A DNA stretch of 34,646 nt from Candidatus Omnitrophota bacterium. GTDB taxonomy: Bacteria; Omnitrophota; Gorgyraeia; JABMRN01; RBG-13-46-9. The DNA is taken from the NCBI GenBank assembly GCA_020346285.1, contig CP070780.1:1386955-1421600 (forward strand), in the 5' to 3' direction. The notes beneath the pieces were generated by a model. It saw only the letters and a list, made by a program, of their open reading frames with translations, searched no databases and had not been told where the DNA came from. The translations under genes and the position numbers were made by a program. Below are positions 3,801-34,646 of the stretch, one piece after another; position 1 is the stretch's first letter, and every line of letters begins with the position of its first letter.

Positions 3801-6800
3801 TCAGGTCTTTTTCCCTGCCGGGGTTAAAACTGTTTAGGATGAGGTCGTATAAAGACTTTTCTATCTTCTCTTCGCCAAAGGTATTTATGAAGAATACGAG
3901 AAGTTCCTTCTTTCTTTCAAGATCAGATTCTATCTTGCCCTTCTTAAGCAAGCGGTTTAACGAATCTATGTCCTCTTTGAAGAAGATACCTGTTAAATCT
4001 AAAAATATAGAGAGTATTTCCTCATCGTTCATCTTTATACCCATTATCCGGTCTTTCAGGGAGTCGAAGTCATCTGTTATAAGATCTGTTATACATGAAA
4101 GCGTGTTAAGCAGCTTCTTTCTATCGGTTAATATATCGTTATCCCAATGGGGCATTCCAGGATATAGATATGAGAGGATAGCTAATGGTATATTGTGTTC
4201 TTTCTCTTCCTTATTTAAGATATCCTCTTTAATAAAATCCTTGAATTGATTGTATCTTTCTATATCTTGTTGGTCCAATTCCTTATCTCTTATATTCGAG
4301 GCAAAGAATAAAGAATTTATAATAGATGGGTTTTCTTTATTTAAAAATGAGTGCTTTGCTATTAAATCGCTTATTATTCTATCTGCCCTATTTGAAAATA
4401 GTTCAAATATGCTTCCGATACCACTTGTTGCCCCTATTTGGACATACGGATCAGGATCTTTCAGGGCTTTTTTGAGGAGGTTTTTTGCTTTTTTGGGCTT
4501 GTGTTGGAATATGCCTCCGATACTACATGCTGCTTCTTTTCGGACATTCGGCTCAGTATCTTTCAAAGTTTTTTTAAGGAGACTTTCTGCTTCTTTGGGG
4601 TTGTGTCGGAACATGCCTCCGATACTACTTGCTGCTCCTCTTCGGACATACGGATCAGGATCTTTCAGAGTTTTTTTAAGGAGACTTTCTGCTTCTTTGG
4701 GGTTGTGTCGGAACATGCCCCCAATACTACTTGCTGCTCCTTCTCGGACAGACGGATTCTGATCTTTCAGGACTTTTTTGAGGAGGCTTTCTGCTTCTTC
4801 GGGGTTGTGTTGGAACATGCCTTCAATACTACTTGCTGCTCCTTCTCGGACAGACGAATTCTGATCTTTCAGGGCTTTTTTGAGGAGTTTTTCTGCTTCT
4901 TTGGGGTTGTGTTGGAACATGCCTCCAATGCTACTTGCTGCTTTACTTCGGACGAGCCAATCACGCTTTTTCAGGGCTTTTTTGAGGAGTTTTTCTGCTT
5001 CTTTGGGGTTATGTTGGAATATGTCTGCAATACTACTTGCTGCTTCACTTCGGATGTACCAATCACGGTCTTTCAGGGCTTTTTTGAGGAGTTTTTCTGC
5101 TTCTTTGGGATTGTGCTGGAACATGCTTCCGATACTACCTGCTGCTTTTTTTCGGACATAGGAAAAATCAGACTTTTTCAGGGCCTCTTTGAGGAGTTTT
5201 TCTGCTTCTTCGGGGTTGTGTCGGAACATGCCTGCGATATTACTTGCTGCTTCTCTTTGGATATACGGATTAGGATCTTCCAGGACTTTTTTGAGGAACT
5301 TTTCTGCTTCTTCGGGGTTGTGTTGGAACATGCCTCCAATGCTACTTGCTGCTCTTTCTCGAACAGACGGATTCTGATCTTTCAGAGCCTTTTCTAATAA
5401 TAATTCTCCATCTAAAATAATGCCTGTAACTTCTGCGTCAGTAAGGGCACGAGGCAATGTTTCGGTGGTTTCTCTGGCCTGTGCAAACAAGCGTTCAAAT
5501 TCCGCGTCTTCATTGCCAGCTGCTAAAATCACATCTTCTTCCTCTTCATGCTCTTCATAGATATCCTCTATACCATCGATAGCGTAGGATTCTATGAGCT
5601 TTTTTATCTGTTCGATTCTTAATCTCTCGCTTAGATAAATATCTTTGGATGCCACTTTAAACAGATATCGGCCTATAATACCTCTCTTAAAAGTATTTCT
5701 TGCCGTTATCATTTTATTCATGGAAGATTTCGCTGCGGCAGGTTCGAACCCCGCTTTTACCGTTAAAAATAAACCGAGCTCATCAGGAATGGTTTCCGCA
5801 TCATGCGATAATATTATACGTTCCCTTATCTTTTCCATCTCCCCTCTTAATTTCTGGTTGGGTATGAATATATCGCAGATAATTCTTAGAATATCCCAGA
5901 CAAATTTCAGGGCTCGAATAAACCGTCTGGGCATAAGATATCTCATCTTACCTATTTTAGAAATTCTTCCGTCCCAGTCTTTCCTATTTGAAATAATCTC
6001 TTGAAAATGAGCGAGCTCATGGCCAAGGGCATAGGCAACTTCATCATCATTCAAAAGCTCTGCCGTACTTTGCGGGATTCCTATAATAAGCCCGCCGTCT
6101 TTAGTGATAGCTACAAAGGGGCTTGCTGTGAGTTTTTCGTAAACAAAAAAAGATACTTCTTTAATTTCTTTTAAATCTACGCCATATCGTTCTAAAAATT
6201 TATCTTTATATTCCTCGCTCTGCGCAGCCTGTACGAGCATGGCTCCGATTCTTTCAATTCTTCCCTGCTGTATAGTAAATCTACATTTTAAGCTTGCATA
6301 AATCCAATCGATAGAAGGCGCTTCTCTATCCCATTTTTTAGCTAATCGCTGCGCTAATCCTGTGCCTTCATTATTAGAATTTTCCCTAATCCAGCTTCTC
6401 ATCTCTTGATGGCTAAAATCTACCTTTTTCCTGAAGCTTTCCCATTTGCCTATCTCATATAATTCATGCGCTTTAACAAATTTGAGTGCGTTTTTAGTAA
6501 AAGAACTATCAGCATATATTACAGGTTCGCCATAATATTGGCCTAACCCAATATGTCCTAACAAACCTGTTTTTCTAATGAATGCTTTTATAGGAATTGC
6601 AATTTGGCCTGTATTGTCTCTGTATCGTTCGAGTACCTGTTTTTTTGCTCCAGCTGGCAAGGACCGGAAGTTCTTTAAGTCATCCGGTAACCCCTCCTCT
6701 ATCGCTTTATGGATATCATCATGTTTAGACTTTCTATATTTTCCAGCCGCTAACGCTACGTCTTCTTCTTGACCTTCCGCTTGATCTGTTGCAGTTGGTT

Positions 6801-9800
6801 TTCTATCTACTATGTCAATATTTTGGGGAGCTACATGTAAAATGGCTTTTTCATAAAACCCAAAATCTTTTTGGTTTATTCCTCTGATAGCCATGTTTTC
6901 AAATACTATGCCTTGTTCATCAAGAATAGGTTGTATTCTTTCAATCCACATTATTTTAATCTTACTCTGAACTTTTTTAACATGGTGCCAGCCAAAACGT
7001 TCGGCAATATCTCTTTTTCTTGGTGAAAATGCAAATACCTTCCCGTTCCATGGGGTGCGCATTCGGAACATAGCTGTCTCTGATTCCATTAAGATATCCT
7101 TATGGATATAATTCGCGCTGTGCTGCACAAGGCCTTCAAAAACTTGATATAAATCCATGCCACCGGTTGCAGTTTTCGATATTATGTCCAAGATTTCCAT
7201 GTAATACTGCCCTTGTCTTTTATATAATTCAAACTGTAATATAGCTTTCCCTTCCGGTACAAGGTCTTGGTCATATACCGGCAAATATTCATTGGTTGAT
7301 TCAAATATAACTTTAATACCGCCGTCTTGGGAAAGCGACATTTCTCCCCGGACAACTACCTGATTAAAAGAAGGAAGATATTCGCCAAACAAATTTTCAA
7401 ATTGTTTCTTTGCGGGAGGTTCTTGAGTATGCCTATCGCTTATTAGCAAAGCTTTGTCTAAAAACGCATTAATCTGTCGGATTATTGTATCAGGTAATTG
7501 CCCGGCTCTTATTGGCATATGAGTGCCTTTAGATTGGAAGCCGTCGGTTTTACTCAAATTTAGATTCATTTTTTCTGTTAATGTAACATAAAGAATATCT
7601 TGAATGACGGCAGTATTGACTATATCATCTTCGGCTAATTTTCTTTTTATTTCTTTTTCAACATAGTCAAAGGCCTTTTTTACTTTGAATTCGATTCTTA
7701 ACTCTCCTAATGCCTCTTTTAGCCTCTTTTTATCTTTCTCCGGGGCGCCTTTTCGCGGATCTGCCCTGCTCTTAATCCCATCGATAATCGCGGTTATTTC
7801 TTCCTCTGTGGCTCTTAAAATAATATAGTCCATATTGGAAAGAACCGGCTGAAGCTGTATATCCAGGTTAAGTTTGAACAAAGCCTTGGTAATAGCCTTT
7901 CTTTCCCCTTTTTCTAAGTTCCATAACATGGCTTCTGCTTTGGATTCTTGGTTTACCTCTTTCTTTTTTGTTTCTTTTGTTGAGTCCTCCTGCATCTCGG
8001 GGAACATTTGTTTCTTCAATACTATAGCCCCTTGATTGGTAAAAGACCAATCACCGTTTCCACTGCATTTCCCAAAATCATAATACAAGGGCCCAAAAAA
8101 GATTGCCTCTTTAGTAACGGTTATTGACCGGGTAGCACCAATATTATATCTCTCTGCAAATTTTCTGCCGCCGATGCGGTCGCTTTCTGGTAATTTGGGC
8201 AGAATAACTGCCGGAGTAACCCTTGAAAGGGCCATCCACGCTTTAAGCCAGGCCTTCTCAAGATCAAGGTCAGTCCTCGTGTTATATGCGCCAAAAACCA
8301 CCACACCTTTATCCGTCAGCGCTAATACCGCGTTAGCGAACATTGTCCCGCTTTCATCATAGACTAAAGCAAAAAAACTGTTTGCTTCTAATGCGTGAAC
8401 TATAGGCATTTCGCGGTGTAATCCGTTAGGCGAAAAGCATCCCGGAACGCCTACCCCGGCATTTGCTTCTTCTACAAAGTCCTTTTTAATAACTATTCTG
8501 ACCTTTGTAGGGGCAGTCGCTTTTACTTTATCTTTGCTGTCTTCTGCTTTTTTGATATTTGCGAGAATTTGTCCAATCCTGCTTAATTGCTCTTGAGCTA
8601 ATGGCCTTCCGGAAAGATCTTTTTTCATTTGCTCGGTAAACTCTTTGGCATCATTATACGTAAAAAATTTCATCTGTGACAACTCTTGCGCGCTTATCCC
8701 TTCCGGCTGGTATTTTAACTGTTCGGCTATTTCTATTATTTCATGAGAAATTTGCGCAATATTTTCCCTTATCTGCTCAAGTTGCATAGCTTCCGACAGC
8801 GGTAATATTTCTGTTTCTACCTTAACGCCTTCTTTCCAAAGGCTTTCACTATAGCCTGCCTTCTTTAATTTACTTATTTGCCCCTTGTTTTCTTTTTCAG
8901 CCAGAAGGATTTTTTGAACAGCATTTTTGTCGCCCTTGGACTTCTGATATTTGGTAAGAAGCTTCCGTATTTTTCCCCTCATCCTTTCCCTGTCCGCATA
9001 CGACCCGCCACTATGTCTTGAAAGATTGAAATAAAGATTGCAAATCGTCAATAATTTAGATGTTATGCCTTCATCGCTTAGCATGGCCTCATCTATAGCC
9101 CCTATACCCGTAATTTGTCCGAAAAGCTGCGCCATAAAACGATTTTCAATAGCGGCCATTTCGCCGGGGGTCTGTTTTTCATCAAAACCTTTTCGTAAAA
9201 TCGAATTTATCTCTGAAATTCTACTTTTCAAAATATCTTTAATCTCCGCAGCCAGGCGAGAGTCCGCATTTTTTGCGGCAATATTGCCGATATGCTTCAA
9301 GGTCTTTATCTTTGCCTTTAAACTCCGCTTGCCTTGTTTTGCGCCAATAGCGCCACTTTCGATTTTAAGCATCTTCTGAAGCGGAGCGACTTCTATTATA
9401 TGCTCGGAAGACACGAGGATATTCGTAAAAGTATTCAGGTCATAAATTAAATCTCGTATACCTGTTTTTAAAATACCGAGGCAAAATTCCCGAGCTGTTT
9501 TCTCCCTTATTCCGTACACGTTCATTTTACCAAACAGGCTAAAAACCAAAGAAAAAGCACTTAAGCTTGATACCCAGCCCCTTATGCATTTGCTATCCAT
9601 AGCTAAAACTTCCGGTAATATCTTGCTTGAGCTGAAATTGCTTAATATTCCAAGGTACCCCGTTTTTTCCTCGAAAGACCACCCTTTCATTTGGCTCTTA
9701 AAAATAGCAAAAATCTTTGAATCAATACCTACTACATCGAAAAACTTAACCCATTTAACAAAAACCTGATAGTTACCTTGTGAAAGAAACTCGTCTAACG

Positions 9801-12800
9801 CTTCATGTCCTAAGATTTCCCTAAAAATCGGCATGTAAACGCGCAATTTATCAGATTCTTCATTTACCAGTTTAATTAAATTTTGAGATACATTTTCTGC
9901 AAATTCAAAACGCTTGTTTTCTCCAAAAATGGCATTGACCTTTTCGGATAAAATTCCAGTATAGTTATTTTGCAGATATGTATCTATGGCGCGGGGGGCT
10001 GCTTTTATCATGCTTAAAATAACCTTTATAACCTTCTCGCCGAACATAGACCGAAGATTTTTTAAGTTTTCAAAAAATGTTTTGTTAAAAAGCTTGTTAA
10101 TCAACTTTAGCTCTTCATCTGTAATCTGAACTACATAAAAGCCACCTTGCAGGGGTTTTTTAGAAATAATGCCGAGTGTGCTGTCGATATTTTCTTCTTC
10201 TAAAACGAGAAACGCCCTCAAACTTTCGCCGTCAATAAAATCAGATATCGGATGCCCCTCTATTCTTTTTTCATCTTCCGGGTAGCACCTTTCCCATCCT
10301 ATAATTTTTTTAACTATTTCTTCAGAAAGACTATTTAACCTGGCAACCTCGGTTTCATTTGACAGCATATCAATCAGCGCTTTAACTGACTTCTGGTCTC
10401 TTTTTTCAATGTAACCATGGAATGCATGGATAAGAAAGTTATTCAATTCGACCGAGGATATTCTGCCTAAAACATCCAATAGAGATTTTCTAATAGCTGC
10501 GGTTTCATCCCATAAGACACTTTCGCTTAAATGTGGATAGGCGAGAATTTTTAAACTTTCGGGATGGATTTTTCTAAAAAGTTCTATATTGTCGATAAAA
10601 GCTTTAAAATTAAATGACCGAGATTCCGATATCTTTATCAAAAATTCAGCCAACTGGTATCCATAAGGTAAGCGATTAGTCGCATGAGTCGCGCCGACTG
10701 GCAAATCACGGATTCTACGGCTAAAGTTATGCGGGAATATTTTGGGCGGAAGCTTTACGCCACTTCTTTTGTCCTCCCGAATAAGTTGTATTATTTTATT
10801 ATAGATCTCATCCGAACTTAATAGCTCCGGATTATATCTTGCCGCAAGTATATATAACTGGCCCATATAAGGCGACTCTGCATAAAGCGTCCTGCATTTT
10901 GTAATATCAATTTTTTCTTTCAGCAAAGCAGGTTTTCCTGAAATCATAGTCATGATTTCTATGGCGAAACCTTCCGGCTCTTCAAGCAGAAACTTTTCAT
11001 ACTGCTCCTTAAATTTGGATAAAATAGATTTTTCATTTGAGGCAAAACGAACTATGTAAGCCTGTGCCAAATTCTTTGAACGAGCGGCAAGGGAAACAAC
11101 AAATTCAAAATTATCCTCGATGCTCAAATAACTGCCAAATTCTATATATTTTGATACTGCCTCTATCAGGTCTTCTTTGAGCTCATTATCCCGTATCCTT
11201 GCGTTTATTTTATCTATAATGTTAAAATCCTTGCCGGTATTTAAAAATTCCACGCTAACATGCGTGAGCAGCGCATTTTGGTCTGCTGAAGCATCTGAAA
11301 GAAGGCTAATAAGTTTTTTTCTTGTATCATTATTTAAAAGAAGTTCTTTAAATTTCTCTTCCGCCAGTTTTTGCTGCAATAATTCAAAAATTTTTACATC
11401 TCTTGCTACCGCGAGAATCTCTGCCACAGGAACCGAATACAAAATATCACGGACAGGATTATTTATAATGCGCGCGTCATCCACATATTTCTTTCTGACT
11501 TCCGGCAAGATTTTAACGAAATCGGATATAAAAACCGGCTCCATAATTGCATAAATAAATGTCTCACCTGTGGGAACAAAATTTAAAGTGTCTTTTTCTT
11601 TTTGCGCATATCTCTTTGCCGCATTTGCTAATTTAAGGAAATCCCGCGCGGTATCAACATCTTTACCGGCCATATCAATAATTATTTTCAATGCTTTATC
11701 CGTTGTTAACCCGATGCTGTGTTGCCCTAATCCGATAAACGCGTCCGCATATTCTTCTCCTACGCCCAAGCCGGAAATCTGGGCTAGCTTTTTGATAAAG
11801 ATTTCGTCTTTGATATAACGTTCAAATTCTTGCGGGAAATATGCGATAATTTTTAGTAGGGGGTTAAGCAATGGCCCATAAGAATTATATAGGTAGATTA
11901 TTGGTTCACTTAAAAGCTTTTTTAAAATATCCGGAGTCATTTTATCCATGAAATAATTCGAATTCCCGTATATATATCCGGCAAAACCGGCCCGGTTTTC
12001 CGGACTCAATTTCCGGAAATTATCAAGAAGGCCTTCTTTTTTAAGAAGTTCCGGGACATCCTTGCCTAAACCTGTTAACCTGAAATAATTTATCATTGAT
12101 TCTGTAGCTTTTTTATCATCCCCTTTATAAGCAAGAGTCTCTTCCAAAACGTTGGCAGTAAAAAAGGGATTACGATAATTTTCATCATGAAGATATTCTT
12201 TATTTTGTTTTGAATGGTATATAGAAGCATAATCTATATATAGTTTTACAGCATGCGGTGACCCCAGGTTTAGGATTTTATCCGCGTTCTCTATCATAAA
12301 TTTAATACCTTGAGGATCGGAAAGAACGCCCCAAGTTTTATCCTCAACGGCTATTCCAAAGAGTTTAAAAAGGATTAGATTGGCTTCCTTACGTTTTCCT
12401 CTTTTTCCGCCATAGAGCCGGGCAATATCAGATGCCAAATCTAAAAACTTTTCGTCAATAAGAACATAAAACTGGTCTGACGGCATTCCTGTTTCAAGAT
12501 CCAGCGTTTTGTTCAAAATAAACAGATAATCTTTAATAAATTCGCCCATGGCTTCCATCTGTTTGCTATAACCCCTTAGTGGTATTAAAAAATAAGGATA
12601 TTCACAAGCCCAATAAAGATCATAAACATCAAAATTAAGCTTAGTCATAAATAACAAATCTTTAGCTTCTACCTTGAGTATTTTTCCGTCATCTAACGTA
12701 ATAGATTTACGGTCAGCATAATATCTCTTCGCTTCATCCAGATGTTCAACGGAATCCCCGGAGATTAAACCCAACAACATCTTTTCTTTTTCCAAAATTC

Positions 12801-15800
12801 CAGCTATAAAAGGCGTATCTTTGGATAACAGGCCGCTTGTAATAACCTCCTGTATATCAAGTTCTTCGTCTATAGCGTTCTTTATGTCCTTCTCAAGCAA
12901 TTCCTTTTCGACTTTTTTTCCGGTTAATCCTGTCTCATGAGAAAGCTCATGTTTAAGGCCGATTTTTAGAAGTTTTTGAGCGGTTTGGGGGGCAGAGCCA
13001 AGTTTTTCAAAAAGCGACCGGTGAATACCTATAAAGCCGTTAGCCAGATGGTCCTCAAAAAGATATCCGGCTGTGTCAAGAACAGAAACTACCAATTCTT
13101 TTTGTTTTATCGGCCGGGCTAAAATTTCATTTGCGAAAAAATCATTAAGAAACGCTAAAAACGAATTTTTATCCTTAAATCCGAAGGCCTTGTGTTGTTT
13201 CGTGAGGTCGTTATCAATAAAAACGGTTGTATCATCAATGCTAACCCTCGATGAACCGCGTTTAACACTTTCTTTAATCCTACCTATATCCCTAACCCCA
13301 TTCTTAGAAATCGATTGGGGATTTTCAAGAGGCATGCCTTCGGCATGAGCGAATGAAGGTGGCGGGATATATTGCAATGTAATTATCTCATTATTCTCTA
13401 TATCTACCCTTATCCATCGAGAGCTGCTCAATCCCTCCAAACGATTATAGAGCTCTATGTCTACAAATCCGTCCATAAGCCCGTCTTCGTCCACTAGCCT
13501 AATATCGTTGTAATATATATTTCTGAAATCCAATCCATCGAATATCTCGCTAATTCTATCTTTTTCATCAACTATAATTGCAAAAGCGTCGCTTATCATT
13601 TTCTGCGCTTGTGCTTTCGGACTATCTTCCCCTTCAAAATGGCACACGGTTCGCCAGGTAATCTCATAAGTTAAGGCCTCCCCCTCAAGGAGAATCATAT
13701 CAGGATTTTCGATATGTAATCTCTCGTGGGCTATCTTATACGCGAGCCAGGCAATCCTCTCGTCTCCTTCCCATCTCTGCGAAGCATCTAATCCAACAAC
13801 AATAATGCCCAAATCCGTAAATGCCTGGGCATAGTTGTCTTTATCCAGCCCTTCTAAAAACAAAACAGGATATGTCGTGCCACTGCCGATATCGGCATCG
13901 TTCAGTTCATCATAAGCACGGAGGACTAATTCCTGATACTCATCAGAGTTAGATATTTCAATGGAACGTGTTATGCCCTCCATTGTCACGTCGTGCGCGT
14001 ATTCTAAATAGGCCAATAAATAAGGCGCGAAATCCGCAGGTACAATGGTGCTTCCTGCTATGGCAACTTCTTCAAATGGAACAGGGGCAGGACTTGTTCC
14101 GCCACAATAGGCCAAAAAGGGCATTAACCCAAGAATAAGAGAAATTTTCATGCTTGATTTCAGCTTTGCCAAAATTTTGCCCTTTAAACCACGGCGCGGT
14201 TTAAAGCTCTTAGGAAGTATTATTGGCGGTTCGGTATGGAATAGAGTTGCTGTAGCATATGATTTGCTTAGCGCCGGCCCGGAAGCGGGAGGGCGTTTTG
14301 CCCATATACCAGTTAACCCTAATCCCCTCTCTTGTATCGATTCCAATTTATATAATCCCGCTACATCCCGTTGGTTTGACATGTTAAGCATAAGCAGGCC
14401 GTATTCATTTAAATAGACAATGGCTCTGTCTATCCAGGCAGAAGATAAATCCTTTGGTATTCCTTTTTCAATATATAAATCATAACCATTTTTCAGTTCG
14501 TTAGGGAAATAATTACGCGCATCTGTTCTATATAAAATTATCTGCCTTTTGCCGCCATTATAATTGTAAGTGAATACTAACTTTTCAAATTGTTCTTTTG
14601 TAGCATCATTTTGTATAGTATAAACTTCTGTATCAACATCTGACGCGCCTTTACATGCCAATATCTCGGTTACATAGTGATCTTGCAGGTATCTTGTGGG
14701 GCCGTCTTGAGGATCCACCCCGACTATCGTCTCTGCATCAGTAGATTCAATCGCTACTTTAGCATCAAAGCCGATCCCGGGATAATAAGCGATACGGATT
14801 CCGCCTGGCTTATGCTTTCTTATCAAAGCGCTGAAATAGGTTATAATTCTTTCGCTACCGGACGCATTAATCATATGTATCTGTTGGGCAAAAAAGTTTG
14901 TTAGTTTTTTCATGCCAAGATATTTTGCGATTTTAAAGCCGACGCGGCGGATAGCAGTTCTTAGCCGAGTGATTAGCAGTAGAAAGGAAAGTGCGCTGGC
15001 AAATATCTTAGTATTAATCTTTGCTTTGGTGCCGGACAGCCCTTTGGCTTCGCCCGGGACGGGCAATGAGGTTTTGAATTGGGTGTAAGCGGGTCTTGTC
15101 GGCAATGTTATTCCGGCGGATCGGGCAAGCGCTGCTATATCCAGTTCTGTGGCCGGGTCCGCTATTTTGCCTTCCTCAACCTGCCTTCGCCATTCTGCCA
15201 GCAATCTGCACACCAGCGCTTGCTCTTCTCCGTGCATGCCTGTGCAAAGCGCGGGGTCGCTTAAAAATGTAGCGATGGCAAGGGATGAATGCAATGCTTT
15301 CTGCAATTTCGCAATCATTGAATTCGGTTTAGCGCCCAAGAGTTCGAAATACGGGCTTTTATAGGCGGTCCCATTTTTAAAATTCGGCATAATTGAAATG
15401 TAAGAGATGTTATTTCTTTTAAACAGCTCACACAGATTTTCGGTGTGGAAGCCGCCTGCGACAAGAATGGTAATTTGAGGCTGTCTCGCCTGTCTAACGG
15501 GTATCGAATATCTGGTATTTCTTAGAAATACCGAATCTCTTTTAAGCGAATATTCGTAAAATTCGGCAAGGTTTTCACGGTAATCATTAATTTCATCTAT
15601 GTTATCATCAAGTTTCGCCGTTATTTTATGTAACGGTGCTTGTTTATCGATGAACGCTACATAGTTTTGCGCATCGAATGTTTTTTTGTTTTTCTTGTAA
15701 TACGCGTAGTCGTCACTTGTTAAAGAAACGTTAAAAATGTTTCTTGTCAGGGCAAGGTTTTTGGAAAGGAGATTAAGTTCTTTTTGCGTGCCGTTCTTGT

Positions 15801-16938
15801 ATAAAGAATCTTTAATCCTGTTTTCAAGCGTATCCATTTCCTCCATTACCTCGAATTTATCAATGGCGTCGTACATGGATATATAAACTATATATTTTTT
15901 AAGTTCGGAATATTTGCTTAGGTCCAAATTCATCGATTTTGCTTTTTTGACAAGATATGCATAGAAGTCTTTTTGCGAGATTTGTTCTGCCTTGAATGCC
16001 ACTGTTTTCTGAACGAGTTCCTCGATGTCGTTTTTGGAGAGCATTTTTTCGAATTCGTCAATGAGGCGATTTCGTTCCATGTTGGCGGTTTTAAAATTTA
16101 TATCATCTTCCTGTTTTAATGACTGGTGAAGGAGGTATATATTCGTGAGCGTTTTTATATCGATTGCCTTTTGGCCTGCTTTCCGGATTAGGTAGGCAAG
16201 GTAATCTTTGAATTCGAGTTTTCCCTGTTTATAACCGGTGTATTTTCGGTCAAGCGCAAGAAGTTCGGCGCTATATATGTGGCGTTTCAGGTTTGAAATG
16301 ATATGGTCGAGTCCTTTTAAGTATTTTTCTATCGTGCCTTTGTGCTTAAGCGAGTCCTTGTAGACATTGAAATTCCTAAGATAAAGCTCTGTATTTTCAA
16401 CGCCCCAAAGATGCGCTTTATCGGGATTATTTATGGCGAAGTATTCGGCGCCGTTAACAAGGCCTTCCTTTACAAAGTAATCTACCACCTTTTTTCTTAT
16501 ATCTTTATCCTGAATCCTCGTAAAAACGGACAGGTCGTATTCGCCTTTTCCGCCTTCGAGATTAACTACTTTTATTCCGTATCTTTTATGAAGATATTCG
16601 ATTATATCGGCTATTTTGTGCTGTGCCGCGTAATTGCAATGAGCATCCTGGATATGAACGATAACCTTGCCGGAATCCGCCTTATGCATGTCTTTAATAT
16701 GCCCGAGGTATTGGGGCAGGGTAAATGTATTGACATTAAGCTCTTTGAAAGGACCCGGGCCGCCGGCCCTATCAGAGCCGACGCGAGCAGGCTCTAAGGG
16801 CGTTCCGGCAGCCCAGGCTTTTTCGAGAAGTATATCGGGTCCTACGGTATTAAACAAAAAAGACCATATAGTGATAAATACAATTATCCCCTTATATGGT
16901 CTTTTAGCTATCCAACTATTGAATCTCGCGTCTTTCAT
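880..16938 (-). CDS. Giant multidomain exported protein, 5352 aa
   Basis: One uninterrupted frame codes for about 600 kDa. I do not recognise a named family for the whole. Visible parts: basic n-region plus hydrophobic stretch 17-33 and AWAA (41-44), a Sec signal or anchor; a domain at about 90-520 with HIQDAH (H100), NLEGG (E128) and AGGFH (H498), reminiscent of the EreA/ChaN/TraB group; a possible Rossmann methyltransferase at about 700-870; a buried lipoprotein-like signal (930-945); HERLH at 1071 and HELSH at 1330; a long helical stretch to about 2700; HELYE at 3491; an M48-like unit with HELAH (3640-3644) and E-x-x-P-D (3715-3719); ten HEAT-like repeats (3847-4187); a TCQ-motif domain (about 4640-4750); a kinase-like loop (H5038, D5046, D5065). 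Start is the ATG at 16938 with a weak GGA Shine-Dalgarno. A surface or cell-contact role is inference only. Confidence 0.9.
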   Translation of the reverse strand: MKDARFNSWIAKRPYKGIIVFITIWSFLFNTVGPDILLEKAWAAGTPLEPARVGSDRAGGPGPFKELNVNTFTLPQYLGHIKDMHKADSGKVIVHIQDAHCNYAAQHKIADIIEYLHKRYGIKVVNLEGGKGEYDLSVFTRIQDKDIRKKVVDYFVKEGLVNGAEYFAINNPDKAHLWGVENTELYLRNFNVYKDSLKHKGTIEKYLKGLDHIISNLKRHIYSAELLALDRKYTGYKQGKLEFKDYLAYLIRKAGQKAIDIKTLTNIYLLHQSLKQEDDINFKTANMERNRLIDEFEKMLSKNDIEELVQKTVAFKAEQISQKDFYAYLVKKAKSMNLDLSKYSELKKYIVYISMYDAIDKFEVMEEMDTLENRIKDSLYKNGTQKELNLLSKNLALTRNIFNVSLTSDDYAYYKKNKKTFDAQNYVAFIDKQAPLHKITAKLDDNIDEINDYRENLAEFYEYSLKRDSVFLRNTRYSIPVRQARQPQITILVAGGFHTENLCELFKRNNISYISIMPNFKNGTAYKSPYFELLGAKPNSMIAKLQKALHSSLAIATFLSDPALCTGMHGEEQALVCRLLAEWRRQVEEGKIADPATELDIAALARSAGITLPTRPAYTQFKTSLPVPGEAKGLSGTKAKINTKIFASALSFLLLITRLRTAIRRVGFKIAKYLGMKKLTNFFAQQIHMINASGSERIITYFSALIRKHKPGGIRIAYYPGIGFDAKVAIESTDAETIVGVDPQDGPTRYLQDHYVTEILACKGASDVDTEVYTIQNDATKEQFEKLVFTYNYNGGKRQIILYRTDARNYFPNELKNGYDLYIEKGIPKDLSSAWIDRAIVYLNEYGLLMLNMSNQRDVAGLYKLESIQERGLGLTGIWAKRPPASGPALSKSYATATLFHTEPPIILPKSFKPRRGLKGKILAKLKSSMKISLILGLMPFLAYCGGTSPAPVPFEEVAIAGSTIVPADFAPYLLAYLEYAHDVTMEGITRSIEISNSDEYQELVLRAYDELNDADIGSGTTYPVLFLEGLDKDNYAQAFTDLGIIVVGLDASQRWEGDERIAWLAYKIAHERLHIENPDMILLEGEALTYEITWRTVCHFEGEDSPKAQAQKMISDAFAIIVDEKDRISEIFDGLDFRNIYYNDIRLVDEDGLMDGFVDIELYNRLEGLSSSRWIRVDIENNEIITLQYIPPPSFAHAEGMPLENPQSISKNGVRDIGRIKESVKRGSSRVSIDDTTVFIDNDLTKQHKAFGFKDKNSFLAFLNDFFANEILARPIKQKELVVSVLDTAGYLFEDHLANGFIGIHRSLFEKLGSAPQTAQKLLKIGLKHELSHETGLTGKKVEKELLEKDIKNAIDEELDIQEVITSGLLSKDTPFIAGILEKEKMLLGLISGDSVEHLDEAKRYYADRKSITLDDGKILKVEAKDLLFMTKLNFDVYDLYWACEYPYFLIPLRGYSKQMEAMGEFIKDYLFILNKTLDLETGMPSDQFYVLIDEKFLDLASDIARLYGGKRGKRKEANLILFKLFGIAVEDKTWGVLSDPQGIKFMIENADKILNLGSPHAVKLYIDYASIYHSKQNKEYLHDENYRNPFFTANVLEETLAYKGDDKKATESMINYFRLTGLGKDVPELLKKEGLLDNFRKLSPENRAGFAGYIYGNSNYFMDKMTPDILKKLLSEPIIYLYNSYGPLLNPLLKIIAYFPQEFERYIKDEIFIKKLAQISGLGVGEEYADAFIGLGQHSIGLTTDKALKIIIDMAGKDVDTARDFLKLANAAKRYAQKEKDTLNFVPTGETFIYAIMEPVFISDFVKILPEVRKKYVDDARIINNPVRDILYSVPVAEILAVARDVKIFELLQQKLAEEKFKELLLNNDTRKKLISLLSDASADQNALLTHVSVEFLNTGKDFNIIDKINARIRDNELKEDLIEAVSKYIEFGSYLSIEDNFEFVVSLAARSKNLAQAYIVRFASNEKSILSKFKEQYEKFLLEEPEGFAIEIMTMISGKPALLKEKIDITKCRTLYAESPYMGQLYILAARYNPELLSSDEIYNKIIQLIREDKRSGVKLPPKIFPHNFSRRIRDLPVGATHATNRLPYGYQLAEFLIKISESRSFNFKAFIDNIELFRKIHPESLKILAYPHLSESVLWDETAAIRKSLLDVLGRISSVELNNFLIHAFHGYIEKRDQKSVKALIDMLSNETEVARLNSLSEEIVKKIIGWERCYPEDEKRIEGHPISDFIDGESLRAFLVLEEENIDSTLGIISKKPLQGGFYVVQITDEELKLINKLFNKTFFENLKNLRSMFGEKVIKVILSMIKAAPRAIDTYLQNNYTGILSEKVNAIFGENKRFEFAENVSQNLIKLVNEESDKLRVYMPIFREILGHEALDEFLSQGNYQVFVKWVKFFDVVGIDSKIFAIFKSQMKGWSFEEKTGYLGILSNFSSSKILPEVLAMDSKCIRGWVSSLSAFSLVFSLFGKMNVYGIREKTAREFCLGILKTGIRDLIYDLNTFTNILVSSEHIIEVAPLQKMLKIESGAIGAKQGKRSLKAKIKTLKHIGNIAAKNADSRLAAEIKDILKSRISEINSILRKGFDEKQTPGEMAAIENRFMAQLFGQITGIGAIDEAMLSDEGITSKLLTICNLYFNLSRHSGGSYADRERMRGKIRKLLTKYQKSKGDKNAVQKILLAEKENKGQISKLKKAGYSESLWKEGVKVETEILPLSEAMQLEQIRENIAQISHEIIEIAEQLKYQPEGISAQELSQMKFFTYNDAKEFTEQMKKDLSGRPLAQEQLSRIGQILANIKKAEDSKDKVKATAPTKVRIVIKKDFVEEANAGVGVPGCFSPNGLHREMPIVHALEANSFFALVYDESGTMFANAVLALTDKGVVVFGAYNTRTDLDLEKAWLKAWMALSRVTPAVILPKLPESDRIGGRKFAERYNIGATRSITVTKEAIFFGPLYYDFGKCSGNGDWSFTNQGAIVLKKQMFPEMQEDSTKETKKKEVNQESKAEAMLWNLEKGERKAITKALFKLNLDIQLQPVLSNMDYIILRATEEEITAIIDGIKSRADPRKGAPEKDKKRLKEALGELRIEFKVKKAFDYVEKEIKRKLAEDDIVNTAVIQDILYVTLTEKMNLNLSKTDGFQSKGTHMPIRAGQLPDTIIRQINAFLDKALLISDRHTQEPPAKKQFENLFGEYLPSFNQVVVRGEMSLSQDGGIKVIFESTNEYLPVYDQDLVPEGKAILQFELYKRQGQYYMEILDIISKTATGGMDLYQVFEGLVQHSANYIHKDILMESETAMFRMRTPWNGKVFAFSPRKRDIAERFGWHHVKKVQSKIKIMWIERIQPILDEQGIVFENMAIRGINQKDFGFYEKAILHVAPQNIDIVDRKPTATDQAEGQEEDVALAAGKYRKSKHDDIHKAIEEGLPDDLKNFRSLPAGAKKQVLERYRDNTGQIAIPIKAFIRKTGLLGHIGLGQYYGEPVIYADSSFTKNALKFVKAHELYEIGKWESFRKKVDFSHQEMRSWIRENSNNEGTGLAQRLAKKWDREAPSIDWIYASLKCRFTIQQGRIERIGAMLVQAAQSEEYKDKFLERYGVDLKEIKEVSFFVYEKLTASPFVAITKDGGLIIGIPQSTAELLNDDEVAYALGHELAHFQEIISNRKDWDGRISKIGKMRYLMPRRFIRALKFVWDILRIICDIFIPNQKLRGEMEKIRERIILSHDAETIPDELGLFLTVKAGFEPAAAKSSMNKMITARNTFKRGIIGRYLFKVASKDIYLSERLRIEQIKKLIESYAIDGIEDIYEEHEEEEDVILAAGNEDAEFERLFAQARETTETLPRALTDAEVTGIILDGELLLEKALKDQNPSVRERAASSIGGMFQHNPEEAEKFLKKVLEDPNPYIQREAASNIAGMFRHNPEEAEKLLKEALKKSDFSYVRKKAAGSIGSMFQHNPKEAEKLLKKALKDRDWYIRSEAASSIADIFQHNPKEAEKLLKKALKKRDWLVRSKAASSIGGMFQHNPKEAEKLLKKALKDQNSSVREGAASSIEGMFQHNPEEAESLLKKVLKDQNPSVREGAASSIGGMFRHNPKEAESLLKKTLKDPDPYVRRGAASSIGGMFRHNPKEAESLLKKTLKDTEPNVRKEAACSIGGIFQHKPKKAKNLLKKALKDPDPYVQIGATSGIGSIFELFSNRADRIISDLIAKHSFLNKENPSIINSLFFASNIRDKELDQQDIERYNQFKDFIKEDILNKEEKEHNIPLAILSYLYPGMPHWDNDILTDRKKLLNTLSCITDLITDDFDSLKDRIMGIKMNDEEILSIFLDLTGIFFKEDIDSLNRLLKKGKIESDLERKKELLVFFINTFGEEKIEKSLYDLILNSFNPGREKDLKRFFRYISLLNAFPEEYMDEYKPEIENNRIQLVRERKTLISILTSKLKALLSLSDEEETLLNSSMENFQEYWQNDKFFERVVVQAAFFTQKGKESLKKLVLGMAKNRDKPSLEDNVHYEKMREKGFSQEFIDKWKEDKSYYIEKPKPEEIEISYQSLLSQIMLHLNMTEDELERLPQEHKEEHLEEAVEALLNIISSLKEGKLPDAHVVNIALAFISSPQGKGIFNKELITDLRNLLPARIDEEELKKASRIRITSDSNIFMRAGLEPHSTCQRATSRTAQNKDGQLINRILHGQFKLAQYLIGNTVIARTHLETTTEDGKPVLLVEEIYQHIFIPYDRNQFEREILKYASSIGIKTIHWSQAPQKIQYEQRPNPPPVSIEEALYRDTRIFNYATDIEPPMGGGMDPITLTKYAQRSDTTPAQLVEYLKQTGLFYQADIIKEALKSNPEKLAEFERLFAQAERSRVDRDFASIDVAELEYGEGEEIDEKRLLDGYRGQFQNQDVHVRGIALDRRVCRNYINSLRTRTKSGKKAIAPVHKVYVPVSVPDIHECAARNKAVLCKNTRLRPEVLSIIRNGAQEGLFELVELRTYRDYRNAEDDLGIKPNYLFSSLGSAGYIALFVSEWIGPNLIQLFQKTSEGDSRRIAVGANLGRILGALHNAGLVAGDSHLKQFVIDETTNDVYRIDTANITSTHLETPDVREKVLEHELLTIIYQGIGVDKTVYRAYIGNYNAERGRDASTDPDATYDGKFENILESRQAQTIEAFNSINRKADTVKAVVGVPKEMNQTQIQQALRVINRGLARSGFGDIRDTHQVITFEIDVANPEQTRKNYEQAMDNAHKQLPENGRIVLFAPQIDIGPQLAKQAQDQYKEKGYITVIPDAYTDSHPEQNEYPDIEVRVALARHVAFYYNGNDQKSAIESINKLLQQVSENAVISTLEQLLDILNPLKIRPIVFENIAKWQKYRKAIATSL
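2423..2448 (-). repeat. Copy 2 of a 26-bp exact repeat inside the giant gene
   Basis: These 26 bases are identical to 5480-5505. Both lie in the same reading frame and code for the core of a shared EFERLFAQA motif (residues about 4831-4839 here). It marks the junction between a helical region and the module that contains the kinase-like domain. Confidence 0.85.
4378..5400 (-). repeat. Ten tandem 34-residue HEAT-like repeats (102-bp DNA period)
   Basis: Ten consecutive units of 34 residues (one of 35) cover residues 3847-4187 of the giant protein. Each follows the pattern LLKKALKD, then a variable VR pair, AASSIGGMF, HNPEEAE. The arrangement of two helices with a D-x-x-x-x-V-R turn is typical of HEAT repeats, which form curved protein-binding scaffolds. 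At DNA level adjacent units are close to identical; for example 4568-4617 and 4670-4719 match over 50 bases. This implies recent expansion or gene conversion and a region prone to length change. The last unit is degenerate. Confidence 0.9.
5480..5505 (-). repeat. Copy 1 of a 26-bp exact repeat inside the giant gene
   Basis: Identical over 26 bases to 2423-2448, in frame, coding for the FERLFAQA junction motif at residues about 3812-3820. It lies between the M48-like module and the HEAT repeats, just after an EEDVILAAG linker that also occurs in a similar form (EEDVALAAG) at about residues 3390-3400. Confidence 0.85.
14104..14151 (-). other. Lipoprotein-type signal peptide buried in the giant protein
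   Basis: Residues 930-945 read Met-Lys, a hydrophobic run, then a lipobox LAYC followed by GG and a Pro/Ser/Thr-rich tail. This is the layout of a bacterial lipoprotein signal peptide, with Cys945 as the would-be lipidated residue. It sits 929 residues inside an open frame, so it is either the fossil N-terminus of a formerly separate lipoprotein gene or a real internal start. No clear Shine-Dalgarno precedes the internal ATG at 14151. Confidence 0.65.
14182..14206 (-). other. Perfect hairpin in coding DNA just before the buried lipoprotein start
   Basis: Nine-base arms (14182-14190 and 14198-14206) with a 7-base loop form a perfect inverted repeat. It lies about 30 bases upstream of the internal Met codon at 14151 and would look normal in an intergenic spacer. 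On the mRNA it is followed by an A/U-rich stretch. It may be the remnant of a terminator or leader from before the two genes fused. Confidence 0.55.
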
Positions 16939-25196: not shown

Positions 25197-25288
25197 TTTG
25201 AGATCCCTCGGGCACTTCATGCCCTCGGGATAAATTCGCGCCTATGACTTACGTCAACCACTGTGGTTGACGTAAGTCATGCGCTCAT
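25197..25288 (-). repeat. Double-hairpin spacer element, copy A (rpsH-rplF)
   Basis: The spacer begins directly after the rpsH stop. Its first hairpin is an almost perfect 37-base palindrome (25244-25280, 18-base arms around one central base). The second (25203-25231) has 5+5 base pairs split by a symmetric two-base internal loop that reads GA/GA on the transcribed strand, with a five-base loop. The same element, with changed but still pairing stems, lies at 25707-25795 on the other side of rpsH. Such spacers are unusual in an operon where neighbours mostly overlap. Confidence 0.85.
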
Positions 25289-25687
25289 TTACCAAACCTC
25301 GCAGATAATTTCTCCGCCGAGATTCTCTTTTTTTGCTTCTTTATCCGTCATAATGCCTTGCGGGGTCGAAATCAAGGCTATGCCTATTCCACCGTAAACA
25401 TCTTTGATTTCTTTACTCTTTACGTAAATTCTTAAGCCGGGTTTTGAAATTTTTTTAAGGCCCGTCAAAGCGGTTTCATTATTCTTGCCGTATTTAAGGT
25501 ATACCTTCAGTATTCCCTGTTTTTTATCGTCGACAGTTTTGCAATTTGAAATAAAGCCTTCCCGTTTCAAAATTTCCAAAATGCTTTCGTTTATCTTTGA
25601 ACGCTTAACTAAAACATCATCCTTATGAGCCATGACTCCGTTCCGAAGAACTGCGAGCATATCCGCTATCGGGTCAGTTACCGGCAT
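25289..25687 (-). CDS. rpsH: 30S ribosomal protein S8
   Basis: S8 binds the central domain of 16S rRNA; in E. coli it also represses translation of the spc operon by binding its mRNA. The 132-residue protein starts MPVTDPIADMLAVLRNG, typical, and ends with the signature STPQGIMTDKEAKKENLGGEIICEVW (about 107-132). It is the only gene here flanked on both sides by copies of the same double-hairpin element. Whether S8 binds these elements is an open idea, not a finding. Confidence 0.98.
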   Translation of the reverse strand: MPVTDPIADMLAVLRNGVMAHKDDVLVKRSKINESILEILKREGFISNCKTVDDKKQGILKVYLKYGKNNETALTGLKKISKPGLRIYVKSKEIKDVYGGIGIALISTPQGIMTDKEAKKENLGGEIICEVW

Positions 25688-25706
25688 TTTTATTTTTCCT
25701 TTACGT

Positions 25707-25795
25707 TTTTGATATCCCTCGGATACTTTATATCCTCGGGAGAATTCGGCTTTATGACTTACGTCGGCTATCGCCTCCGTAAGTCATGGCCTCAT
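25707..25795 (-). repeat. Double-hairpin spacer element, copy B (rpsN-rpsH)
   Basis: This copy starts directly after the rpsN stop. The first hairpin keeps the 10-base arms of copy A (25754-25763 and 25778-25787) but has a different interior with GGC/GCC arms and a GA/GA internal loop on the transcribed strand. The second hairpin (25715-25741) keeps the GA/GA internal loop and a similar five-base loop, while the inner stem has changed from GGGCA/TGCCC in copy A to GGATA/TATCC here. Paired changes with kept structure argue for a functional or mobile RNA/DNA hairpin. Confidence 0.85.
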
Positions 25796-25981
25796 TCACC
25801 AGCTTGCCTTTACGACGCCTGGTATCTCTCCTTTTGAGGCAAGCTCTCTGAAGCATATACGGCAAAGCGTAAATCTTCGCATGTAACCGCGCCTTCGGCC
25901 ACAAAGCTTGCAACGATGGTATCCTCTAACTTTAAATTTTGGTTTTCTTTTAACTTTTTCAATCAGGCACTTTTTCGCCAT
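25796..25981 (-). CDS. rpsN: 30S ribosomal protein S14, zinc-binding short form
   Basis: S14 lies in the head of the 30S subunit. This is the 61-residue zinc type (S14Z): Cys24, Cys27, Cys40 and Cys43 form the zinc ribbon, and the end [12 protein letters not shown] is characteristic. It abuts rplE with no spacer. The longer zinc-free S14 is not seen in the window. Confidence 0.98.
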
Positions 25982-26532: not shown

Positions 26533-26568
26533 CCCCTCACCCTAACCCTCTCCCCTACGGGGAGAGGG
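26533..26568 (-). repeat. GGGGAGAGGG hairpin repeat between rplX and rplE
   Basis: Ten-base perfect arms (546-555 and 559-568 in the 26,000 range) enclose a 3-base loop, followed on the transcribed strand by TTAGGGTGAGGGG and the rplE start. A related copy lies at 29199-29252 before rplV. I recall this C-rich/G-rich unit as a dispersed intergenic repeat in many bacterial genomes. Here its tail seems to supply the ribosome binding site of rplE. Confidence 0.8.
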
Positions 26569-26576
26569 AATTTTAT

Positions 26577-29198: not shown

Positions 29199-29252
29199 CT
29201 CACCCCTGCCTGCCGGCAGGCAGGCTTCCCTCTCCCCAAAGGGGAGAGGGAA
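29199..29252 (-). repeat. Nested palindromes between rpsS and rplV
   Basis: One hairpin has arms 29226-29237 and 29241-29252 with an AAA loop and is the same GGGGAGAGGG unit as at 26546-26568. Next to it a perfect 20-base palindrome (29205-29224, CCTGCCTGCC and its complement) sits exactly where the rplE copy has TTA, before the shared GGTGAGGGG tail. It looks as if one palindromic element was inserted into another. Confidence 0.85.
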
Positions 29253-29270
29253 TTTTTCCTTGATCCTGAA

Positions 29271-33541: not shown

Positions 33542-34217
33542 ATTTTACCTCCTTGTAATCGCCAGAGCCCACGGCCGGATTTGAACCGGCGACCCCATCC
33601 TTACCATGGATGTGCTCTACCAACTGAGCTACATGGGCATATTCTCTTGCCCATTCTTTTATAATACCTAAAAGTTTTGTATTATGAACATATATGGTAA
33701 TGGTGCCGAATTCCGAATGTTTTTTTGAGCTTGAGTTACTCCTGTTTTTTAAAATCGTTGTTTTTGTAAATTGTTTTAAAGAGAGCCCTAAAAAATCTGA
33801 CCAATATTCCCTTGCCTTTTTCTGTGAAATATCGGGATATATAATTAAGGACAATTTTATTTTATCGGTCCTGACACCGCATATAACTTTTAAAAATTTA
33901 ACAAAAATTTTCACAAGCGCCGGATTTGAGTTTGAAAAACGTATAGAATTTTTATTTTTTGTATTTCCTTCCGTAAGATAAAGCCCGAGTGCCATCGCCT
34001 TCAAATGCTCTTCCTCCGGCGTGAGCGATGTTAAGACATTAAAAGGATCGCCTGTCTTATTATTTTTTATATATGAAGCTTCTTTACGACTTCTCATTAT
34101 AATATTATTATTATACAATATATCCCTTATTTTTCTCGTCGAGAGACTGAACATGGCGGCCGTTTCGTTAATAGAATTTCCTTTTTTGTAAGTCCTTATA
34201 ATTGCACTAACTTGCAT
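33534..34217 (-). CDS. HTH plus LAGLIDADG-like protein whose frame runs through tRNA-Thr
   Basis: The 227-residue frame has an N-terminal helix-turn-helix-like part (about 14-45, [20 protein letters not shown]) and a LAGLIDADG-like core with ALGLYLTEG (76-84), [17 protein letters not shown] and a second strand-rich half, [19 protein letters not shown]. Such small proteins relate to homing endonucleases, but some act as regulators. GAAGGAC seven bases before the ATG at 34217 is a fair Shine-Dalgarno. Residues about 194-217 are encoded by the tRNA gene itself, and the TAA stop overlaps codons 2-3 of tuf. The natural protein probably ended near residue 190, so its own stop seems to be lost. Whether it still cuts DNA cannot be told. 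Confidence 0.7.
33566..33638 (-). tRNA. tRNA-Thr (anticodon GGU)
   Basis: A complete 73-base cloverleaf: acceptor GCCCATG pairs with CGTGGGC, the D arm has GCTC and GAGC, the anticodon stem CATCC/GGATG holds loop ATGGTAA with anticodon GGT (33603-33605), and the T arm is GCCGG-TTCAAAT-CCGGC. The discriminator base is U, and CCA is not encoded. It lies just upstream of tuf in the same direction, probably cotranscribed. Confidence 0.97.
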
Positions 34218-34296: not shown

Positions 34297-34348
34297 GGAT
34301 TTTTTTAAGATTTTTTTAGGTTTTCTAAAAGGTAGGTTTTAATAATAA

Positions 34349-34462
34349 ATTCCGCGCTTTTTTCTCCGAAGCCGCAGCCATTCAAGAACAGTATTATCAA
34401 CTCCCCTTCCTATTAGGAAGGGATACAGGCCGCCGTAGGCGGCCGTCATAAGGGAAACCTTA
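34349..34462. repeat. Hairpin-rich direct repeat, copy 1
   Basis: 114 bases that recur 184 bases further on (34533-34646) with five differences. Inside are a 9-base-arm palindrome (CCCTTCCTA and complement), a GGCCGCC/GGCGGCC hairpin and half of an AAGGGAAACC/GGTTTCCCTT hairpin. A frame of 81 codons crosses both copies on the minus strand, but I take it to be a by-product of the repeat. No other gene is seen from 34218 to the window end. Confidence 0.9.
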
Positions 34463-34532
34463 GGTTTCCCTTTGAAATGATTTGGGCGCAAGCCTTTTTG
34501 CCGAAGGCAAAAAGCTGAGGAGAAAAAAGTAT
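34463..34532. other. Spacer between the two direct repeats, itself hairpin-forming
   Basis: It holds the second arm of the AAGGGAAACC hairpin, a CTTTTTGCC/GGCAAAAAG hairpin with a GAA loop (about 34492-34512) and the first arm (34519-34529) of an 11-base stem whose partner (34541-34551) lies in repeat copy 2. Nearly every base of the unit can pair. No gene is seen. Confidence 0.7.
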
Positions 34533-34646
34533 ATTCCACACTTTTTTCTCCGAAGCCGCAACCATTAAAGAACAGTATTATCAACTTCCCTTCCTATTAG
34601 GAAGGGATACAGGCCGCCGTAGGCGGCCGTCATAAGGGAAACCTTA
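34533..34646. repeat. Hairpin-rich direct repeat, copy 2 (runs to window end)
   Basis: Matches copy 1 at 109 of 114 positions and is cut by the window edge, so more units may follow. The unit length of 184 bases and the lack of short identical repeats with unique spacers speak against CRISPR. Confidence 0.9.

Follow-up and report, generated by a model that had tools for sequence, protein, structure and literature searches.

Among the described systems, those closest to the repeat reported here are the REP elements (with their BIME and REPIN forms), the PATEs of Haloquadratum and IS608, with its IS200/IS605 ends. REP elements (PMC3733652 and PMC6006769) carry, by definition, GTAG or CGTC tags and RAYT flanks (RAYT being the REP-associated tyrosine transposase). 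They are short intergenic hairpins without a gene of their own, many per genome, mostly 3' of coding regions and combined into palindrome mosaics, and these latter traits apply to the hairpin described below, HP1, as well. PATEs, as PMC3119063 presents them, resemble HP1 in the lack of a coding gene, the palindromes near the ends, insertion without target duplication and, if our proposal for HP1 holds, a targeting sequence that lies outside the element; their palindromes, however, resemble those of IS605-type transposons of the same genome, whereas no such partner was found for HP1, and they belong to one species, whereas HP1 is phylum-wide. In IS608 (PMC5934647), a guide at the foot of the hairpin pairs with a short target, which is kept and 3' of which the element inserts, and we propose the same for HP1, except that the IS608 guide is 4 nt long and 5' of the hairpin, whereas the pairing strand of HP1 is 5 nt long and 3' of it, and that no tnpA was found for HP1.

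HP1 is, like REP elements, a multi-copy intergenic palindrome, but it departs from them in a 5-bp foot that covaries with its flanks, in two GA/GA loops in many copies, in a foot reading N5-GA..GA-N5' instead of GTAG/GTGG or CGTC in the aligned copies, and in not flanking a Y1 tyrosine transposase gene in the manner of a REPtron at any of 71 Y1 loci. With both the REP tag and the RAYT flank missing, HP1 is not filed as a REP member, and is likened instead to PATEs for the absence of duplication and to IS608 for the pairing; by analogy, it seems to work like these systems without being assigned to any of them, and is ordinary in kind and unusual in its covarying foot. No description of it was found in the available parts of the open-access literature on palindromic or mobile repeats of Omnitrophota, including PMC10066038 and PMC12306157. 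In our opinion, the two elements treated here probably both represent a palindromic mobile DNA element that is non-autonomous, is dispersed through the Omnitrophota and chooses its target by pairing, as in IS200/IS605.

Two composite elements beside rpsH

The window (the whole stretch of DNA analysed, 34,646 nt, from what is hereafter the own genome, or G000) holds rpsH (uS8) at 25289..25687 of the minus strand, flanked by two composite elements, copies A and B, which lie on the same strand, the coding strand of rpsN, rpsH and rplF, and each end a short way 5' of the following gene. Copy A (25199..25291, rpsH/rplF interval) starts within the rpsH stop codon TAA (25289-25291) and scores 113 bits (E 3.4e-26) in an own-genome search with R1, a covariance model made from eight own-genome copies; copy B (25710..25798, rpsN/rpsH interval) starts within the rpsN stop codon TGA (25796-25798) and scores 94.4 bits (E 2.8e-21). 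The long hairpin, HP1, of copy A (25231..25291; 66.7 bits with R2, a covariance model of HP1 alone) is made up of the foot TAAAT/ATTTA, a GA/GA loop, GCGC/GCGC, a 2-nt 3' bulge AG and a long stem from ATGACTTACG/CGTAAGTCAT, with ATGACTTACGTC..GACGTAAGTCAT coming after GCGC/GCGC. The host-side strand of its foot (TAAAT, 25287..25291) includes the stop codon, and the element-side partner (ATTTA, 25231..25235) is the proposed guide. HP1 of copy B (25741..25798; 64.1 bits with R2) has the foot TGAAT/ATTCT, in which four of the five positions pair, followed by GA/GA, GGC/GCC and ATGACTTACG-GA..GA-CGTAAGTCAT. The short hairpins, HP2, read ATCCC-GA-GGGCA-TGAAG-TGCCC-GA-GGGAT in copy A (25203..25231, folding z -4.15) and TCCC-GA-GGATA-TAAAG-TATCC-GA-GGGA in copy B (25715..25741, folding z -3.52), all of these features being on the minus strand.

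The paired structure of both copies is more than chance, as the folding energy z-scores of the whole elements are -8.55 (copy A) and -7.40 (copy B), and none of 200 dinucleotide shuffles of either copy folded as low. Sequence and folding therefore confirm the original prediction of two elements of about 90 nt, placed after the rpsN and rpsH stop codons and built on one common plan, and the exchanges that it had pointed out (GGGCA/TGCCC for GGATA/TATCC and GCGC/GCGC for GGC/GCC) were read correctly, the compensatory changes being real and the structure idea standing; its plan of the hairpins holds as described, with the GA/GA loops of the long hairpin and the inclusion of the stop codon in the paired foot having been overlooked.

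Some other features of the window might be recorded here as well. A second dispersed palindrome, CCCTCTCCCC-N3-GGGGAGAGGG, lies at 26546-26574 and 29228-29256 (one of the copies being just 5' of rplE) and turned up at 7 sites in a 415-kb sample of the own genome. On the minus strand, 880-16938 is taken up by a 5352-aa open reading frame, with 102-nt (34-aa) tandem repeats at 4299-5417, and a 122-nt direct repeat, 93% identical, occupies 34341-34462 and 34525-34646, thus reaching the window end. The own genome has a located dnaA, and its sampled GC skew flips sign many times along a contig with N gaps.

A covarying palindrome dispersed through the Omnitrophota

Across 74 distinct copies, HP1 is an approximately 60-nt hairpin with the consensus N5-GA-GNNC-AYRACTTAYG-..-CRTAAGTYRT-NN-GNNC-GA-N5', in which N5 and N5' form the foot, a 5-bp helix. 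These copies had been located by R1 and then re-found by a script (R1 matches not fitting the script being dropped, uncounted), which required the outer GA/GA and partly the inner stems, making those positions no independent evidence, and left the foot free. A second GA/GA loop is often seen further up the stem, the inner loop, also left free by the script, being GA/GA in 31 of the 74 copies and paired TC/GA in 12. The 2-nt bulge, mostly AA (29 copies) or AT (27), sits on the 3' side only and thereby orients the element. On its 3' side, HP1 is usually joined by a second, variable hairpin, and as some copies consist of HP1 alone or carry a different second hairpin, the right end of the element is not defined; a looser HP2 pattern matched only twice in the 415-kb sample of that genome mentioned above, once at copy A and once in what looks like a chance match. 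At three loci (L174, L177 and L205), inverted HP1 pairs surround other hairpins in what, by eye, is a REPIN-like arrangement.

HP1 covaries strongly. When 28 equal-length copies were aligned, 96.4% of the pair cells were paired (79.5% in shuffles), both sides changed in 16 of the 23 pairs of the helix, the covariation value was 0.458 against 0.144 after shuffling, and sliding the partner by 1-3 columns dropped the pairing to 24-39%; since the copies were picked by patterns that partly favour pairing, it is the double changes that weigh more here than the percentage.

The dispersal of the element is directly observed. R1 located copies at 15 places in the own genome (E up to 1.5e-7), the other 12 of its 27 rows there being the palindrome seen on the opposite strand (10) or weak (2), and R2 matched all 15 of these loci and yielded 15 matches in a whole-genome search as well. 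R1 found matches in 30 of 39 genomes, the own one included, and R2 (E up to 1e-4) detected HP1 in 156 of 237 sampled Omnitrophota genomes (in 125 of the 193 of good quality), with at most 23 candidates scored per genome in this survey, which makes its copy numbers lower bounds. A GTDB-wide pattern scan returned at least 117 stretches, and among the matches listed, 105 are titled Omnitrophota or Omnitrophica, five come from Velamenicoccus, Zapsychrus and Aceula (all of which we take to be Omnitrophota), and seven are others (one each from Planctomycetota, Neomarinimicrobiota and Ratteibacteria, and four unnamed or uncultured) that may be misnamed bins. HP1 is thus a phylum-wide family in Omnitrophota, to which almost all of the GTDB matches listed belong, and it may occur in other phyla too. 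Viral contigs gave no HP1 match, and no Rfam family exceeded its gathering threshold for HP1 in the window and 13 loci, where the sole match above threshold was a tRNA at 33566-33638, a further search giving sub-threshold matches only.

Such a distribution bears directly on the idea, put forward in the original prediction, of a regulatory or processing RNA tied to S8, that is, a regulatory RNA of the spc operon, S8-binding or otherwise, on either side of rpsH. The covariance-model search proposed there did bring up further copies, in the form of scatter over 15 places of the own genome and not of confinement to rpsH. Two copies do flank rpsH, directly at stop codons and on the transcribed strand, which speaks for such an RNA; the own genome, however, has 13 further places with copies, and neither rpsH copy has a counterpart in the same-genus genome G001 (RpsH 90% identical), where R2 found no HP1 match at the site of copy A or copy B and the rpsH-rplF spacer reads TGGTAGGTGAGATATG. 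Although rpsH is present in all 39 genomes searched, R1 matches adjoin it, among the 30 rpsH loci examined (the own one and those of 29 relatives), only in the own genome and a single relative, G020, and the G020 copy is inverted, R2 placing its HP1 on the strand opposite rpsH; in G013 and G025, an R1 match lies about 1 kb from rpsH. No special link to rpsH was found, and the S8 leader, which the original prediction was prepared to give up should the copies prove scattered without a link to rpsH, is rejected for the dispersed copies and for the lack of HP1 conservation at rpsH among relatives, such an RNA now being a very improbable explanation. The other suggestion made there, that of a mobile palindromic element having landed twice, has fared well, given the dispersed copies, the copy-free sites in the same-genus genome and the rpsH copies being mostly absent from relatives and once inverted. 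The G001 rpsN-rpsH spacer, the site of copy B, holds a different palindrome, TGAACCTGTTTCA..TGAAACAGGTTCA.

Comparison with G001 was extended to the 13 further own-genome copies by searching that genome for their 150-nt upstream flanks. Matching flanks were found for 11 of the 13 sites: identity is 86-96% at ten of these, one match covering 104 nt, and 100% at the last, where the match covers no more than 33 nt. Ten of the 11 sites are without a copy in G001 (as judged by eye and with R2), the remaining one (L032/L142) having a copy of clearly different sequence; with both rpsH sites included, 12 of 13 comparable sites lack HP1 there. The cleanest junction reads GGTCACTTAA|ATGAAGCC..GATCTCAA|GAATGGAGG in the own genome and GGTCACTTAAGAAGGAGG in G001, with no duplication evident, and a second clean one reads TTTCAAAATTTAA|ATGAGGCC against TTTCAAAATTTAAAAAAGGAG, again without target duplication; by eye, no repeat is left at the cleanest three of the ten copy-free sites (L030, L037 and L029), where insertion without target duplication, as in PATEs, is accordingly what is seen. 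At L028, the insertion seems to shorten the upstream gene and to provide its stop codon (G001 frame judged by eye), and G001 copy L150 faces an apparent decayed remnant in the own genome. At L041 (approximately 1501-1593), HP1 stands alone, in frame, and is translated near the 3' end of what we take to be a peptide-deformylase-like gene upstream of a presumably tatA-like one, G001 having a short, different stretch there. Rickettsia palindromic elements are palindromic repeats likewise able to lie in frame inside genes, but they differ from HP1 in sequence and phylum, and most HP1 copies examined lie at gene edges.

In principle, a copy-free site could also have arisen by loss. One site (flanks 77% identical, preceded by what is presumably hisD) bears a copy in G001 as well as in G005, of another genus, which, judging from the sequences, could be retention or re-use. 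HP1 identity is 0.71 within and 0.66 between genomes, the former being above all 500 label shuffles. A recent burst from a single master copy, considered as well, was not seen, as all ten own-genome copies compared are nearest to a copy from another genome. Mobility of the HP1 element is well supported, and HP1 is a real, phylum-wide palindromic repeat and very probably a mobile one.

The foot helix and the gene edges

The foot is where HP1 meets its host, as host-side bases, often those of the upstream stop codon, are paired there to the 3' side of the element. Over the 74 copies, Watson-Crick pairing at positions 1-5 outside the GA stands at 100/99/97/93/92%, compared to 100/86/92/44/75% with shuffled flanks, positions 6-12 being at shuffle level; when shuffling is done within genomes, positions 4 and 5 are above all 1000 shuffles, whereas 25 of the 1000 come up to the value of position 2 and 120 to that of position 3. 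The covariation of the foot is directly visible in the pairs themselves, as TAAAT faces ATTTA in 30 of 32 cases, TTAAT faces ATTAA in 16 of 17, TCAAT faces ATTGA in 5 of 7, GAAAT faces ATTTC in 3 of 4 and TAAGT faces ACTTA in both of two, the ten fully paired foot types also including single cases such as CAGGT/ACCTG, where a gene end reading CAGGT-GA (the gene presumably being groES) faces ACCTG. Among 119 copies from the 117 named stretches, found by a pattern scan that fixed foot positions 1-3 and likewise required the GA on both sides, position 4 pairs in 87% (37% shuffled) and position 5 in 87% (78% shuffled), and position 6, at 40% vs. 28%, was reached in none of 2000 shuffles, making the 5-bp limit not perfectly sharp.

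Does the foot match reflect the reading of a target, or does it arise later? By the target-guide pairing known from IS200/IS605, the foot covaries as expected, yet the G001 host bases, compared by eye, match the outer three foot bases at five of the ten copy-free sites and not at the other five. This match at no more than half of the sites, together with the above-shuffle pairing of position 6 in the named copies and with the foot being part of a helix that covaries throughout, fits a foot whose pairing is maintained by compensatory mutations or created after insertion through fold-back DNA synthesis, a course of events that we regard as possible, if clearly the less probable one. It sits less well with pairing that drops to shuffle level beyond 5 bp in the 74 copies, and with two of the 13 copies that have a non-Watson-Crick foot position, these two being the inner units of a three-unit tandem array in G002: the first foot of the array pairs, and the two feet abutting a neighbouring unit do not do so fully, as would be expected if the foot were matched to the target when the element inserts, with no selection on the single hairpin to maintain the match, a recent duplication explaining this equally well.

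A different reading would make HP1 a general gene-end RNA (protecting mRNA 3' ends, stalling ribosomes at stop codons or serving RNase III processing), selected site by site and covarying due to RNA folding. By script, 21 of 28 copies from G000 (15) and G001 (13 examined, of 19 R2 matches listed) have a stop codon inside the foot or the GA, two of the 21 being doubtful (L036 is antisense and L142 has a short frame), the GA/GA loops form on one strand only, and ribosome stalling is attributed, in PMC12306157, to E. coli REPs that lie no more than 15 nt from a stop codon, all of which would suit such an RNA. Gene edges called mechanically within 150 nt tell against it, however, as among 81 copies (from 80 of the 117 named stretches), 40 are antisense to a gene start, 18 follow a sense stop and 23 do neither, and so do the 12 of 13 comparable sites free of a copy in the same-genus genome and the copy translated in frame at L041, leaving this reading improbable. 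The 5' end of HP1 is often towards a gene edge on either strand, which favours a DNA element with any RNA role being secondary, and such a secondary role may exist at single sites. In the L222-L301 set, the inner stem seems, by eye, tied to orientation, GAGG starting 12 of the 18 copies after sense stops and 3 of the 40 antisense at starts, to which lineage effects may contribute.

Search for a transposase partner and the proposed insertion mechanism

PF01797 (Y1) genes are present in 32 of the 39 genomes (107 matches), and HP1 was found at none of 31 Y1 loci with R1 and at none of 71 with R2 (71 of the 107 matches, 31 with flanks of up to 1.5 kb and 40 with up to 0.3 kb). With a profile of 31 Y1 domains, all 40 control Y1 loci were recovered but the six-frame translations of 324 further loci gave no match, and clustering of 71 of the 107 Y1 proteins gave no group common to G000 and G001 above 120 bits and no cluster that tracks HP1. 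The two Y1 transposase genes of the own genome (L025 and L026) each have flanking hairpins of their own, which by eye are unlike HP1, no ends common to HP1 and a tnpA-bearing element were seen in the loci examined, and, when a further protein family recurring beside HP1 was sought, ABC-transporter-like, ribosomal and other housekeeping genes (named by eye) headed the 25 clusters listed. Genomes with more copies tend weakly to have more Y1 genes (Spearman 0.38, p 0.016), and the HP1/Y1 presence table (27/3/5/4, with three genomes having matches and no Y1 gene) gives a Fisher p of 0.037, both values being uncorrected for the relatedness among genomes.

That HP1 is nevertheless a classical REP of a RAYT, with the link having been missed, is a tentative possibility, which its palindromic and intergenic nature, its mosaics with REP-like hairpins (e.g., GATTGCTTCG..CGCAATGAC), some inverted HP1 pairs like REPINs and the commonness of Y1 genes would all speak for, and against which stand the foot of the aligned copies, free of GTAG and CGTC tags, and the Y1 loci and clusters just described, none of which goes with HP1.

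For the mobile element with pairing-based target choice that we favour, we infer transposition as a single strand. The strand bearing the GA/GA loops would fold as single-stranded DNA and insert beside a few target bases (TTAA, TAA or TGA, for instance), which would pair with the 3' foot strand of the element, much like the guide-target pairing of IS200/IS605, and the insertion would leave no target duplication. Targets found at gene edges (stop codons, Shine-Dalgarno edges), combined with selection against insertions within genes, would then make copies pile up at those edges. HP1 might even be a self-programmed insertion unit without an enzyme of its own, each copy carrying a 5-nt DNA guide matched to its target, the guide diversifying and the family exploring new targets phylum-wide while being moved in trans, perhaps by an enzyme outside the Y1 families, a bolder version that we deem rather unlikely.

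As for what this means, covarying hairpins beside ribosomal genes need not be ribosomal leaders, a caution that the two elements at rpsH illustrate well, and the Omnitrophota, mostly known from metagenomes, gain a repeat of clear anatomy that can serve as a marker. Should the foot be a target guide, HP1 would represent plain base-pairing target choice in a short non-autonomous repeat, and its natural guide variation would make the rule testable by comparison alone.
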